A DNA stretch of 64,000 nt, taken from contig NZ_LN651373.1 in the NCBI RefSeq assembly GCF_000826125.2, positions 250,172-314,171 of the forward strand. Direction: 5' to 3'. The notes below the pieces were generated by a model. It saw only the letters and a program-made list of their open reading frames with translations. It had not been told where the DNA came from and did no database searches. Below are positions 27,534-31,941 of the stretch, in pieces. Position 1 is the first letter of the stretch, and each line of letters opens with the position of its first letter. Source of the stretch: Bhargavaea cecembensis (GTDB lineage: Bacteria > Bacillota > Bacilli > Bacillales_A > Planococcaceae). The position numbers and the translations under genes are program-made.

Positions 27534-28697
27534 ATGAAGAACCAACAGGCGGTTGAGGCGTTGGTGTTGGATTCAGCGTGGATCAGCAAACTTGAAGGGG
27601 AAAATGAAGAGATCAATATTTTTGAGACGCTGGGCGTTGTTCATAAGGAATTGCAACATAGCAATATGATTGGCTGGTTGTTGTCGCCTAAAGAAAATCA
27701 TGGCTTGGGGGATGTATTCTTAAGAACCTTCTTGTGTAGGGTGGCTGGAGACTTTGTTGCCGACTTAACGGACGAGGAAGAGACAGCATTGAATCTTGGA
27801 TCCTTTACTTGCCGAAAAGAATACAGGCAGATGGATCTCCTGCTGACGTCTGATACCGAGAGAGCCGTTATCGTGATTGAAAACAAAATCTGGAGCGGGG
27901 AGTCAGAGCACCAACTCGGGAAATATCTACGGCAAGTTAAAGAAGAGTTCAAAGATTATCACCAGCTCTGCCTGTTCCTCACTCCAGATGGGCGACCGCC
28001 GAGTGATCAGGTCAATTGGATAGGCATCTCTTATGAGGACATCTTAGAAGTACTGGAAGAAACCTTAGAAATCCAAGAGAGACAGATTAGCCCTGATGCA
28101 AAGTCCATCCTTAGACAATATATCCAGACAGTGAGGAAGCATATCGTGGGAGACGCAAAGCTAAAAAAGTATTGCCAGGAATTGTACTTTAAACATCGCA
28201 AGGCCTTTGATCTCATATTTGAATATAAACCAGACTTAGCCAGGGAGATCTCAGATGCGTTGCAGAAAGAATTGCATGGCAAGGTAGAGTTGGATCAGTC
28301 GACAAAATCCTATATTCGCTTTACAACGAAAGATCTAGACTCTCTTACACCTAAAGGAAGCACCTGGACAAACAGCGGTCGGATGCTGTTGTTTGAAATC
28401 CAAAATAGATCCGGCCGACTTGACCTAAAATTGATCATCGGGCCAGGGGATCCGGAGGACCGGCGGAAACTCTTTGCGTTAAAAAAGAGTAAGCCAGACG
28501 TAATGATCGGTGCGTCGAAAAGCCTTCAAAAGAGTTACACTCAGCTATACAAAACAGAACTCGTCCCGATGGAGTATATTACCGATCATGAGAGCGAACC
28601 TGACATGGTGATTGATGAGGCAGTTAAGTCTGTAAATAAGTTTATCAACATAGAAATGAAGAGAATCGAAAAAGTAATTATTGATTTCTTAGGTTGA
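27534..28697 (+). CDS. PD-(D/E)XK nuclease family protein (PDDEXK_4-like), copy 1
   Basis: A 387-aa protein. The N-terminal half carries a nuclease core: SNMIGWLLSPKENHGLGDVFL, RKEYRQMDLLLTSDTERAVIVIENKIWSGESEHQLGKY, with D and E-N-K in the D...ExK positions (about residues 103-122). The C-terminal half is a helical region plus a domain with FEIQNRSGRLDLKLIIGPG. It is paralogous to 60048-61226 over its whole length. GGGGAGAG precedes the ATG. The OLD-family gene follows 300 bp downstream; the two may form a defence locus, but the gap argues against one simple operon. Confidence 0.82.
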   Translation: MKNQQAVEALVLDSAWISKLEGENEEINIFETLGVVHKELQHSNMIGWLLSPKENHGLGDVFLRTFLCRVAGDFVADLTDEEETALNLGSFTCRKEYRQMDLLLTSDTERAVIVIENKIWSGESEHQLGKYLRQVKEEFKDYHQLCLFLTPDGRPPSDQVNWIGISYEDILEVLEETLEIQERQISPDAKSILRQYIQTVRKHIVGDAKLKKYCQELYFKHRKAFDLIFEYKPDLAREISDALQKELHGKVELDQSTKSYIRFTTKDLDSLTPKGSTWTNSGRMLLFEIQNRSGRLDLKLIIGPGDPEDRRKLFALKKSKPDVMIGASKSLQKSYTQLYKTELVPMEYITDHESEPDMVIDEAVKSVNKFINIEMKRIEKVIIDFLG

Positions 28698-29000
28698 TAT
28701 TATGTTTTAGAAAGAAATGCAACCGCTCAAAAGAATATTACCTGTTTCAAAAAAAGTTTGTTTGTTATTTTCGAATGTTATGAAAAGTTAGAGAAGGATT
28801 ATCATAATTGCCACGCGCTATATCTACCCGAACTAATTATCTAATTCTTTCGGTTAAATAGAAAACTGAGTGATATACTGGTCGTTTGATTGAAGATGGA
28901 TGGAATAGTATCGGATACAAATTTGAAAGGAGGGGTTGTGGTTTCTGTTGGTATAGGTGTAGTGAATTAAAACAGTAATTCCATGAAAGGGGAATCATCG

Positions 29001-30929
29001 ATGAGAATTAAAGAAATAATAATAAGGAACTTTAAAAGTATAGGGTGCATAGAGCCTTGTAAAATCATATTCCCTAATGTTAATGATGAAGGGTCTTCTG
29101 ATTTTATTACAATAATAGGAGAAAACAATATTGGGAAGTCATCCATATTAGAAGCTCTAAAGCTATTTTTGCCTGAAACGGACTTACCTAGCAATCCAAC
29201 AATAGATATGTTTCCTAATAAAATTGTACCAGAAAATGAAGAAGACTATATGGAAGTGATGATCACTTTTGATGGGTTTAATACCGAGGATATGAACAAT
29301 ACTCATATTAAACCGTACGTTCATAGAGGCGAAATGCGTATTAGAAGGATTTGGTCAGGTCCTGATCTAAGAGATAGTGATGTGCCTTTTGAGGCCTATA
29401 TCCCGAAAAGAACCTTAAGTGAGATTAGTCACGAAGCACCATGGAAGGAGGCAGACTTTGCAGTTTGTGATGAAAAACTAATACAATTACATAAAAGTTT
29501 TTGCGTAGAGAAAAAGTTGAAGTCAAAAACAATCACTGCTGCAAAACAAGAAGAATTTATAGACTTCGTATTCTTAAATGACTCAAGTTTAACAGTCGAT
29601 GGAGTAGTGGAATGGCGTAAAAACCCAAACGGTTTATCATCTATATTACGTTCAATCATGCCCAAGGTGATATATGTGCCAGCGGTTAAGCTTACTAATG
29701 AGGAGGCGGATGCAAAGAAAACAAAGTCAGCAGCAAGTCAAATTGTCTCTACATTATTTGAACATCATCTTAATGAGACTGACGAAATACAGAACTTTAA
29801 GAGTTCGCTCTTAGCTATTCAAAGCATTTTTGATGAAGAAAACCGACATACTGAAGTAAAAGGACTAGAAAAACGAATTGGACGTAAACTAAATCGACTA
29901 ATGGACGATATTGAAGTTAACTTTAAGTTTGACATTCCTGAGGTTATGGAAAACCTGTATATGAACTCAGCTATCCAACTAAAGCGAGGTTCCTTGATGA
30001 CTCATCCTAGTCAACAGGGAAATGGGTTGCAAAGGATGCTAATCTTATCGCTATTAGAAATTCTAGCTGAGCAACTTACTAATCATAGTATAGATAGTGA
30101 AAGGCAGCCAGGTTCAGAAGGACAATGGAAAAGGAGTTTACTCTTCTTAATTGAAGAACCTGAAATTTATCTGCATCCTCATTTGCAAAGAAAAATGAGA
30201 GATTCGTTAATACAAATTTCAAAACACTTTCTTTCTCAAGTGATATGTACTTCGCACTCAGAAAACTTTATAGACTTGGCAGATCGTCACCAAGGTCTTG
30301 TGATATTAAGAAAGGGAGAGGACCATTTAACCTCGGTCACTCAGGTCTCTGAAAATATATATAATGGCGAGGCTGCTGGAGAAATGAGAGATCGAATGAG
30401 AATGCTACTAAACTTTAATACATCAACATTAGAAGCATTTTTTGCAAGAAGAGTAGTACTCGTTGAAGGTGATTGTGAAGTCGCAAGTGTATATGCAATA
30501 AAAGAACGTTTGAAACAGAAGTACCCACAAGCGGCAGATGAATTAGAAGCATTGGTGAAAGAGGTATCTGTAATCCCATGTAATGGTAAACTGACTCAAA
30601 AGGCATATTATACTGTTCTTGAAAACTTCGGTATTGACTCTTACTTGGTTCATGATTTAGATGGTATTGAACAAGATCAAGGCTCAAATCTAAATATCCT
30701 AAATACTATTGGCAGTGAGGAATTCCGTCTCACTCATAATAGGAACTTTGAGCATTTTATATTTAATGAAGAATGGGAGAATGACAAGCCATGGAGAGCT
30801 ACAAAAAAAATTAACGATCAGTTCGAATTATACGAGGATAAGCTTTTGCGTTTTTTCAGCTTTATAATTGAAGAGAATAAATTTAATTACTGGATGGAAC
30901 ATGCTAAACAGACATTAGTGGAAGCATAA
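29001..30929 (+). CDS. OLD-family ATP-dependent endonuclease
   Basis: A 642-aa protein with an N-terminal AAA ATPase: Walker A GENNIGKSS at 40-48 and an ABC-like Walker B FLIEEPEIYLHP near 383. A C-terminal TOPRIM domain follows (VLVEGDCEV near 486, HDLDG near 551). This is the OLD layout (P2 Old, class 1 type); such proteins are ATP-regulated nucleases in phage defence. No UvrD-like gajB gene lies next to it, so it is not a standard Gabija pair. ATG 29001 follows AAAGGGGA. The coding region is much more AT-rich than the window average, so recent transfer is likely. Confidence 0.9.
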   Translation: MRIKEIIIRNFKSIGCIEPCKIIFPNVNDEGSSDFITIIGENNIGKSSILEALKLFLPETDLPSNPTIDMFPNKIVPENEEDYMEVMITFDGFNTEDMNNTHIKPYVHRGEMRIRRIWSGPDLRDSDVPFEAYIPKRTLSEISHEAPWKEADFAVCDEKLIQLHKSFCVEKKLKSKTITAAKQEEFIDFVFLNDSSLTVDGVVEWRKNPNGLSSILRSIMPKVIYVPAVKLTNEEADAKKTKSAASQIVSTLFEHHLNETDEIQNFKSSLLAIQSIFDEENRHTEVKGLEKRIGRKLNRLMDDIEVNFKFDIPEVMENLYMNSAIQLKRGSLMTHPSQQGNGLQRMLILSLLEILAEQLTNHSIDSERQPGSEGQWKRSLLFLIEEPEIYLHPHLQRKMRDSLIQISKHFLSQVICTSHSENFIDLADRHQGLVILRKGEDHLTSVTQVSENIYNGEAAGEMRDRMRMLLNFNTSTLEAFFARRVVLVEGDCEVASVYAIKERLKQKYPQAADELEALVKEVSVIPCNGKLTQKAYYTVLENFGIDSYLVHDLDGIEQDQGSNLNILNTIGSEEFRLTHNRNFEHFIFNEEWENDKPWRATKKINDQFELYEDKLLRFFSFIIEENKFNYWMEHAKQTLVEA

Positions 30930-30989
30930 AATATAAGGAATTAGAAAGATGCCGCTGCTCGATATAGTTGGCTAGATTACTCCCTATAA

Positions 30990-31190
30990 CTTTTCGGCAC
31001 CAGAATCCGGAAGGCTAAAGGTCATACCGACCATTTCGGTGATTTTCAAACCTACGAGCAACACTTCACTCATCAGTGCGAAAGTTTGGCAGGGTTTAAT
31101 AAAACAGTAATTGAATTTTATGAAATTCATTTGTATAATAGAATTAAGCTAAGGAAAGTGGATGTAGGCTTAGAAGCGGCCATCATTTAA
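30990..31190 (+). pseudogene. open remnant frame without start codon
   Basis: Sixty-six codons are open between TAA at 30987 and TAA at 31188, giving LFGTRIRKAKGHTDHF...EFYEIHLYNRIKLRK. No ATG is in frame and no family is recognised; the end weakly resembles the C-terminal part of IS3-type transposases. The 3' end runs into the rRNA-like segment. Most likely a gene fragment, possibly chance. Confidence 0.25.
31111..31139 (+). promoter_or_regulatory. consensus sigma-A promoter before the rRNA-like segment
   Basis: TTGAAT (31111-31116) and a perfect TATAAT (31134-31139) are separated by 17 bp. The predicted start near 31146 is about 12 nt before the 23S-like sequence. Confidence 0.75.
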
Positions 31191-31209
31191 AGAGTGCGTA
31201 ATAGCTCAC
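31158..31209 (+). ncRNA. 23S rRNA GTPase-associated-centre-like segment (L11-binding domain mimic or rRNA fragment)
   Basis: From GATGTAGGCTTAGAAGC at 31161 through AGAGTGCGTAATAGCTCAC (ending 31209) the sequence matches the L11-binding domain of bacterial 23S rRNA (E. coli about 1056-1104) with only a few changes. Position-equivalents of A1067 (31172) and A1095 (31200), contacted by thiostrepton, are kept. GATG/CATC and GGC/GCC pairings are kept, and A stands at the 1061 position, a change known to stabilise this RNA. Homology stops on both sides, so this is not part of an rRNA operon. Function is unknown; see findings. Confidence 0.7.
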
Positions 31210-31247
31210 CTTGTTAGCCACACCAAACTAACAGGGAGAGAGTATGA

Positions 31248-31433
31248 ATGTCAATAATGCATAAGAGAATTACAGTCGTGGTCGTAGTCGTTTTGCTAGG
31301 TAGCATTACAGGCTTTCTGCAACCAAAGGTCTTGCTAGAGTTGTTTAACATAGCTAACATGAACCAGTTCATGGTTGTAGGATTGCCGATCATTTACCAT
31401 CATCTCACAGAAAATGAGTTTATGGAAAAATGA
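31248..31433 (+). CDS. small hydrophobic protein, 61 aa, after the rRNA-like leader
   Basis: ATG 31248 has AGGGAGAG about 8 nt upstream. The product has one membrane segment (about 9-28, RITVVVVVVLLGSITGFL) and a hydrophobic patch near 40-50, with no recognised family. A small stem (TGTTAG with CTAACA, 31212-31233) lies between the rRNA-like segment and the ribosome binding site. Presumed single transcript from the promoter at 31111. Coding status moderately supported. Confidence 0.4.
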   Translation: MSIMHKRITVVVVVVLLGSITGFLQPKVLLELFNIANMNQFMVVGLPIIYHHLTENEFMEK

Positions 31434-31616
31434 TTAAAGGATAAATAGAATAGGGTGTCGTAAACTATGATTTATGATGCCTCTATCTATGTCCTCCATC
31501 AAGCTTGGACATTGATAGGTTAACTAAATATTAATTATTAGTTAGTTATTAAAAAAGCTTGCGTTTTGACTGTTCTTCTCTTACAAGCAATTGATGTTCA
31601 CAACTCCTCCTTGAAT

Positions 31617-31649
31617 AGCCGCCATATCTAGTGATATTGGCGGCTTTTG
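31617..31649 (+). terminator. terminator hairpin
   Basis: AGCCGCCATATC-TAGT-GATATTGGCGGCT with a following TTT and T-rich stretch. It ends the transcript region of the small hydrophobic ORF. The stretch 31434-31940 holds no convincing gene. Confidence 0.8.
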
Positions 31650-31941
31650 GTGTTTTTAAATAAGAATGTGGTTATGTTCTTAAATGGGCTGTTTTATAGA
31701 TTCGGAATACAGGTGAGGAAGATAGGCATGGATGACATTTTGCCGATGTCCATGTCCTGAATCTTGTGTTGTCCATTGAGGTGTCTTTAGCACTGTGAAG
31801 AAAGCGATAGTTCCCTCCGTAGCCATTGAAGATATACAAGAGATGAAAATACTGCTGCCCACGCTTAGTAACCACTTTATCCTATACAGTCACATGGCGC
31901 GAGGGAGAGAGCATGCTCGTTCAAAAAAATCTATCATTTTA

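Follow-up and report, generated by a model that had tools for sequence, protein, structure and literature searches.

A detached copy of the 23S rRNA GTPase-associated centre beside defence genes in Bhargavaea cecembensis and a class of phage RNAs on the same core

A GAC copy beside defence genes

The stretch of DNA analysed here, which we refer to as the window, is 64 kb long and carries a 50-base copy of the GTPase-associated centre (GAC) of 23S rRNA at 31160-31209 on the forward strand. The Rfam model LSU_rRNA_bacteria matches exactly these bases (52 bits against a gathering score of 50, E 1.4e-12), and this is the only Rfam match at gathering score in the window. Upstream of the copy, genes at 27534-28697 and 28983-30929 match the PADLOC PDC-S26 model, a PD-(D/E)XK nuclease, and the Old/GajA-like model, an AAA ATPase with a TOPRIM domain. 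A defence island therefore likely lies just upstream of the GAC copy, as a reading of the sequence alone (the sequence-only reading) had proposed in describing adjacent defence genes. The features surrounding the copy are listed below.

31111..31139, + strand: sigma-A-type promoter-like site TTGAAT-17-TATAAT, 10/12, from a promoter scan
31112..31129, no strand: operator-like palindrome TGAATTT-TATG-AAATTCA inside the promoter, from a genome scan
31148..31158, + strand: 5' strand (GCUAA, AAG) of a possible GAC closing stem, with its partner at 31210-31218
31160..31209, + strand: GAC copy, E. coli 1055-1104, from the Rfam match, relatives and base-by-base reading
31209..31236, + strand: hairpin CCUUGUUAG/CUAACAGGG, which would cover part of the Shine-Dalgarno and competes with the closing stem
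31233..31242, + strand: Shine-Dalgarno-like AGGGAGAGAG, read from the sequence
31244..31264, + strand: alternative 6-codon ORF MNVNNA in another frame, overlapping the start of the 61-codon ORF, read from the sequence
31248..31433, + strand: 61-codon hydrophobic ORF, no relatives found

We take window positions 31160-31209 to correspond to E. coli 23S 1055-1104, closing base to closing base. Compared with the GAC of ordinary 23S rRNA (helices 43/44; Rfam RF02541 positions 1096-1145), the copy shares 48 of its 50 bases with the nearest relatives, including A1067 and A1095. Its two differences are U1061A and A1073G, with the relatives' 23S as reference, its own assembly having shown no 23S gene. 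Both substitutions spare the helices, and U1061A is a change that stabilises the GAC fold. The likeness reported by the sequence-only reading thus stands, with two differences rather than about three to five, and so does its end at 31209, the start being 31160 rather than 31161; the intact A1067 and A1095 equivalents, the paired GATG/CATC helix and the A at 1061 are all as described when read base by base.

The copy is detached from any rRNA operon and ends where the domain ends. When positions 31000-31640 were compared by BLAST with plasmids and phages, only the 50-nt GAC piece matched among the records listed (20 for each), at 96% at best, and these listed matches stop at the same two GAC borders. 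Flanks of 40 and 60 nt showed a likeness to the surrounding 23S no better than that of shuffles (p 0.24-0.56), which places the start and stop of the copy at the closing base pair of the domain, in agreement with the earlier claim; an apparent extension of the match in the 5' flank to 23S upstream of the GAC (GCTAAG...GGATGT) did not rise above shuffles and was rejected. Among 60 relatives, 22 gave a GAC match, nine of them at 48/50 and none higher, and every one of the 19 relative loci examined around the match is a 23S gene. A search for a second stray 23S piece in the own assembly and seven genus mates, scoring eight candidates per genome of 48-70, found none, so that the stray rRNA pieces that the sequence-only reading would have taken as a sign of random capture did not appear among the candidates scored in these eight genus genomes.

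No 23S gene was seen in any of the eight genus assemblies. Some of these are in few contigs, and their rRNA operons are missing or were left out.

A mis-joining of 23S reads into a unique contig during assembly would account for the copy, and rRNA reads may have lacked a place in an assembly that showed no 23S gene and whose contamination is estimated at 6.7%. We consider such an artefact very improbable, in that the copy differs at two or more positions from the 23S of every relative with a full-length GAC match, ends exactly at the domain borders and lies in a 2.07-Mb contig with continuous context.

Candidate leader features around the copy

The promoter-like site lies upstream of the GAC as the sequence-only reading had claimed, but with its -10 element ending at 31139 the gap to the copy is 20 bases rather than 18. 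Promoter-like sites are not enriched in the region (2 found, 2.7 expected). The palindrome has 7-bp arms and no second site in the genome, even when one mismatch is allowed; against shuffles it is weak (p 0.14). Directly around the GAC, 31148-31152 could pair with 31214-31218 and 31156-31158 with 31210-31212, giving a closing stem of eight interrupted pairs that is not significant against shuffles (p 0.12-0.25) or genomic flanks (p 0.24-0.66).

Downstream, the ribosome binding site and hydrophobic mini-protein noted earlier are both present, as the Shine-Dalgarno-like element and the 61-codon ORF. The ORF has a hydrophobic N-terminus and is longer than expected in 430 nt of the same composition (p 0.035). 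The hairpin at 31209-31236 takes the 3' partner of the closing stem as its own 5' strand, and both pairings are possible; its predicted energy of -10.3 kcal/mol is unusual against mononucleotide shuffles (p 0.007) but does not stand out against genomic 37-mers (p 0.13). In the computed fold of the leader, helix 43 and the Shine-Dalgarno hairpin form, and helix 44 and the closing stem do not; the fold as a whole is not unusually stable (z -1.25, with 28 of 200 shuffles folding as well). A simple scan of 30930-31700 gave no terminator-like site. Collectively, there is no clear gain over chance for the closing stem, the promoter or the palindrome, and the Shine-Dalgarno-covering hairpin and the ORF are mildly unusual.

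Recurrence of the unit

Across 398 sampled genomes of the class, a window-type GAC copy occurs in one, its own. A species-wide search with a DNA pattern for a GAC without the usual A1054-U1105 closing pair returned 82 stretches, all 82 inside true 23S; this pattern demands exact interior letters, a base other than A at 1054 and a base other than T at 1105, and copies that break these rules would escape it. Equivalent patterns gave a single contig among the viral contigs of IMG/VR, a true 23S, and no window-type copy. No relative of the 61-codon ORF was found in the genome_contigs collection, the 397 other class genomes, plasmids, phages, Pfam, PADLOC or PHROGs. Exact patterns in the sampled genomes did not recover the promoter-GAC-ORF unit in more than one genome. 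The sequence-only reading had staked its proposal on a homologous unit elsewhere, and that unit was not found again in the collections searched; what does recur is a detached GAC in general, as phage RNAs with a 1055-1104 core.

Neither the phage nor the defence neighbourhood supplied a second case of the window type. Paenibacillus phage Pd_22F (MZ092003.1) was considered and dropped, its match being about 2.7 kb of ordinary 23S; in this 86-kb phage record that 23S is unannotated and is perhaps host DNA at a prophage edge. The possibility that the GAC unit belongs to the neighbouring defence system was rejected, as none of five loci with OLD homologues (63% and 50% identity for the best two) has a GAC within about 1.5 kb on each side.

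These results bear on a rival account of the locus, in which end joining or illegitimate recombination close to a defence island took up a 50-bp piece of rDNA that has no function, the promoter, hairpin and ORF being coincidental. The uniqueness of the copy in the collections searched, the orphan ORF and the weak statistics of promoter, palindrome and stem all speak for a captured fragment and against a functional leader, and the helix-44 part of the copy is plain 23S sequence rather than phage type. Against capture, the copy ends exactly at the closing pair of a domain that folds independently, the own and seven genus genomes hold no other stray 23S piece among the candidates scored, and the 19 relative loci examined are all full 23S context, not isolated pieces. 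The sequence-only reading had held capture to be the simplest explanation; it is indeed close in likelihood to a leader, and the exact domain ends and the missing stray pieces count against it.

A phage RNA class built on the GAC core

A 150-base 23S query against phages and plasmids (60 of 538 plasmid records listed) returned, besides ordinary rRNA, matches of 37-38 nt in Cronobacter phage GAP32, Pectobacterium phage CBB, Aeromonas phage 4_4572 and Xanthomonas phage XaC1 and, among the 60 plasmid records listed, one of 36 nt in a 910-kb replicon of Pseudomonas sp. FeN3W (CP136011.1). All five detached matches lie outside annotated genes, the gene table of the plasmid being incomplete. These phage-type sequences agree with the GAC over its helix-43 half, as far as TTTAAAGAGT; an insert comes next, and behind it TTTGGCGTANNAGCACAC or a close variant. 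The phage GAC RNA is thus a GAC whose helix 44 takes up an extra domain between positions 1090 and 1091.

Three overlapping patterns found such sequences in 35, 23 and at least 120 contigs of IMG/VR. Both the 5' and 3' elements were present in 104 unique sequences, which fall into 97 clusters (97 distinct sequences). This phage set was drawn by exact patterns, and 23 places with the 3' element and no 5' element within 800 nt were left out, a few of which sit at the edge of the available stretch. A query of 44 bases (48 records at E up to 1) listed as further candidates the phages Milchi, Astolliot, UNO-G1W1, XacN1, XbC2 and Serratia BF, as well as six Erwinia pEa_SNUABM records, Kaldavass and Vibrio 2.275.O. 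Some of these matches have an E value of 5e-3, and those of Milchi and Kaldavass lie under an annotated hypothetical protein.

The pairing pattern of these sequences points to a structured RNA. Of the 97 representatives, 74-98% form each of the eight pairs that adjoin G1055/C1104 on the outside, and pairs two to eight each occur as five or six pair types; shifting the partner by one base lowers the proportion to 22-45%, shifting it by two bases to 32-64% and re-dealing partners in a single shuffle to 32-73%. The insert is hypervariable in sequence and length (median 128 nt; 36-334 nt in 40 listed), yet its first three pairs hold in 97, 96 and 88% of 95 sequences, compared with 16-60% with shifted partners. 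Position 1055 is G in 95/97 and 1104 is C in 97/97, the C in part because the search pattern prescribes it, and the next pair outward varies. A1067 is A in 87/97 and A1095 in 95/97, again partly by pattern construction; conservation at pattern letters is built into the search in this way, whereas the pairing of the stem is not.

ARAGORN identified tRNA or tmRNA genes in 67 of the 97 phage loci. Such a gene lies within 1000 nt of the RNA in 61/97 loci, against 45% for positions drawn at random from these loci, and in all 61 the RNA and the nearest gene share a strand. In Pseudomonas phage pf16, the match occupies the gap between tRNA-Asn and tRNA-Pro. The FeN3W 910-kb replicon, filed as a plasmid, carries its phage-type RNA among more than 10 tRNA genes.

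Towards their 3' ends, some inserts have a motif in common, like either CACCCCGUAAAUGGUAAGG or AGACCCUUAGAG, which suggests subclasses of the insert domain. Rfam 15 scans of 13 loci (twelve phage and one replicon filed as a plasmid), some at gathering scores only and some at E up to 1, assigned no family and gave one sub-threshold LSU match at 30 bits. No published description of the phage GAC RNA was found in the literature searched, which took in a minority of subscription journals. The stable RNAs C and D of T4 were considered as relatives and rejected, neither sequence containing a GAC.

Judged from covariation and context, phages encode, often in tRNA clusters, what is a free-standing structured RNA class on the GAC core, with a covarying 8-bp closing stem. 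This is a stronger result than the window copy's own case. The core of the phage GAC RNA has the same ends, 1055 and 1104, as the window copy, and these ends are therefore those of a module that is detached in nature.

The shared ends favour a further possibility that the sequence-only reading had raised, that the window copy yields a decoy RNA acting in trans to titrate L11, a translation factor or a thiopeptide, the ORF being irrelevant, and the intact key residues fit it as well. We nevertheless regard a decoy as quite unlikely, given the lack of a terminator-like site in the simple scan of 30930-31700 and a closing stem that is weak, unlike that of the phage RNAs.

Interpretation

The reading that we prefer, at a probability of roughly 40%, is that the window GAC is a detached module that serves a small transcript, which would start near 31146, as its 5' leader. 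Seen in the locus itself are the module with its exact ends, the ORF and the fact that both pairings can form; from these we infer transcription, a ligand, the direction of a switch and a role for the protein. The leader transcript would fold like the 23S domain and be held in that fold by ribosomal protein L11 or a thiopeptide. The ligand-held fold would favour the closing stem 31148-31158/31210-31218 over the competing hairpin 31209-31236, and binding would thereby free the Shine-Dalgarno so that the hydrophobic 61-residue protein is translated. Without ligand, the Shine-Dalgarno would stay hidden.

Speaking for a leader are the exact ends, the intact key residues, the hairpin over the Shine-Dalgarno, the promoter-like site upstream and an ORF longer than chance. 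Weighed against the points that favour capture, the two accounts come out near even. The features on which the sequence-only reading had based a sensing leader or a decoy are thus present as claimed, no second promoter-GAC-ORF unit was found in the collections searched, and the window copy is so far unique, with a putative use.

Translation GTPases, RelA-related factors and thiopeptides, thiostrepton among them, act at the GAC. Detached GAC modules clearly exist, and a broader reading, which we put forward as somewhat unlikely, is that the GAC is a portable RNA module off the ribosome. The widespread phage class would then probably act in infection by binding or titrating L11 or a factor that depends on the GAC, for instance to blunt L11-dependent (p)ppGpp synthesis or to bind thiopeptides, and the window copy would be a chromosomal use beside defence genes, a leader sensing the free ligand of the GAC and governing a small membrane protein. 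If it is a leader, the window copy would be an L11- or thiopeptide-sensing RNA. Independently of the window, the phage class shows that viruses have detached the site of these translation factors and antibiotics, and it opens a direct test of whether an RNA decoy of the GAC is used by phage. The Rfam scans of the window and the 13 loci gave no described GAC mimic outside the ribosome, and neither did the literature searched, which took in a minority of the subscription journals.

Comparison with known systems

The window copy differs from a 23S rRNA gene in having no rRNA operon around it and no 23S sequence on either side. Mimicry of rRNA is established in the leaders of ribosomal-protein mRNAs (PMC10931766, PMC4538822) and is the nearest known principle to the proposed mechanism; the leaders of L1, L10(L12)4, S8 and L20 resemble the proposed leader in principle, with an rRNA-like protein site in an mRNA leader controlling translation or termination. 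As far as the available text of these two papers goes, such leaders recur and precede their own ribosomal-protein genes, whereas the window GAC precedes an orphan ORF, and none of the leaders described there uses the GAC.

GOLLD and ROOL are large phage RNAs found near tRNA islands, according to the accessible part of PMC12286853. Their tRNA-island setting resembles that of the phage GAC RNAs and not that of the window copy, and the 13 phage-type loci scanned gave no Rfam match to either.

A further likeness is to the phage GAC RNA, whose core from G1055 to C1104, with its ends, is common to the window copy. The phage RNA carries the helix-44 insert at 1090/1091, where the window copy has none and reads GAGTGCGTAATAGCTCAC; its 3' element is TTTRGCGTANNAGCACAC, where the window copy has AGCTCAC; and its strong 8-bp closing stem abuts the core, in contrast to the eight interrupted and non-significant pairs of the window, for which a phage-like closing stem was accordingly rejected. 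Neighbouring tRNA genes are frequent, not universal, around the phage RNAs, whereas the 64-kb window has no tRNA at Rfam gathering score. Because it lacks the insert, the altered 3' element, the strong stem and the tRNA neighbours, the window copy does not belong to the phage class, and a phage origin was rejected on finding the phage-type 3' element in 0/398 class genomes, its own included. What the phage RNAs do show is the 1055-1104 unit in use off the ribosome, and they make it more probable that the window copy is a module rather than debris.
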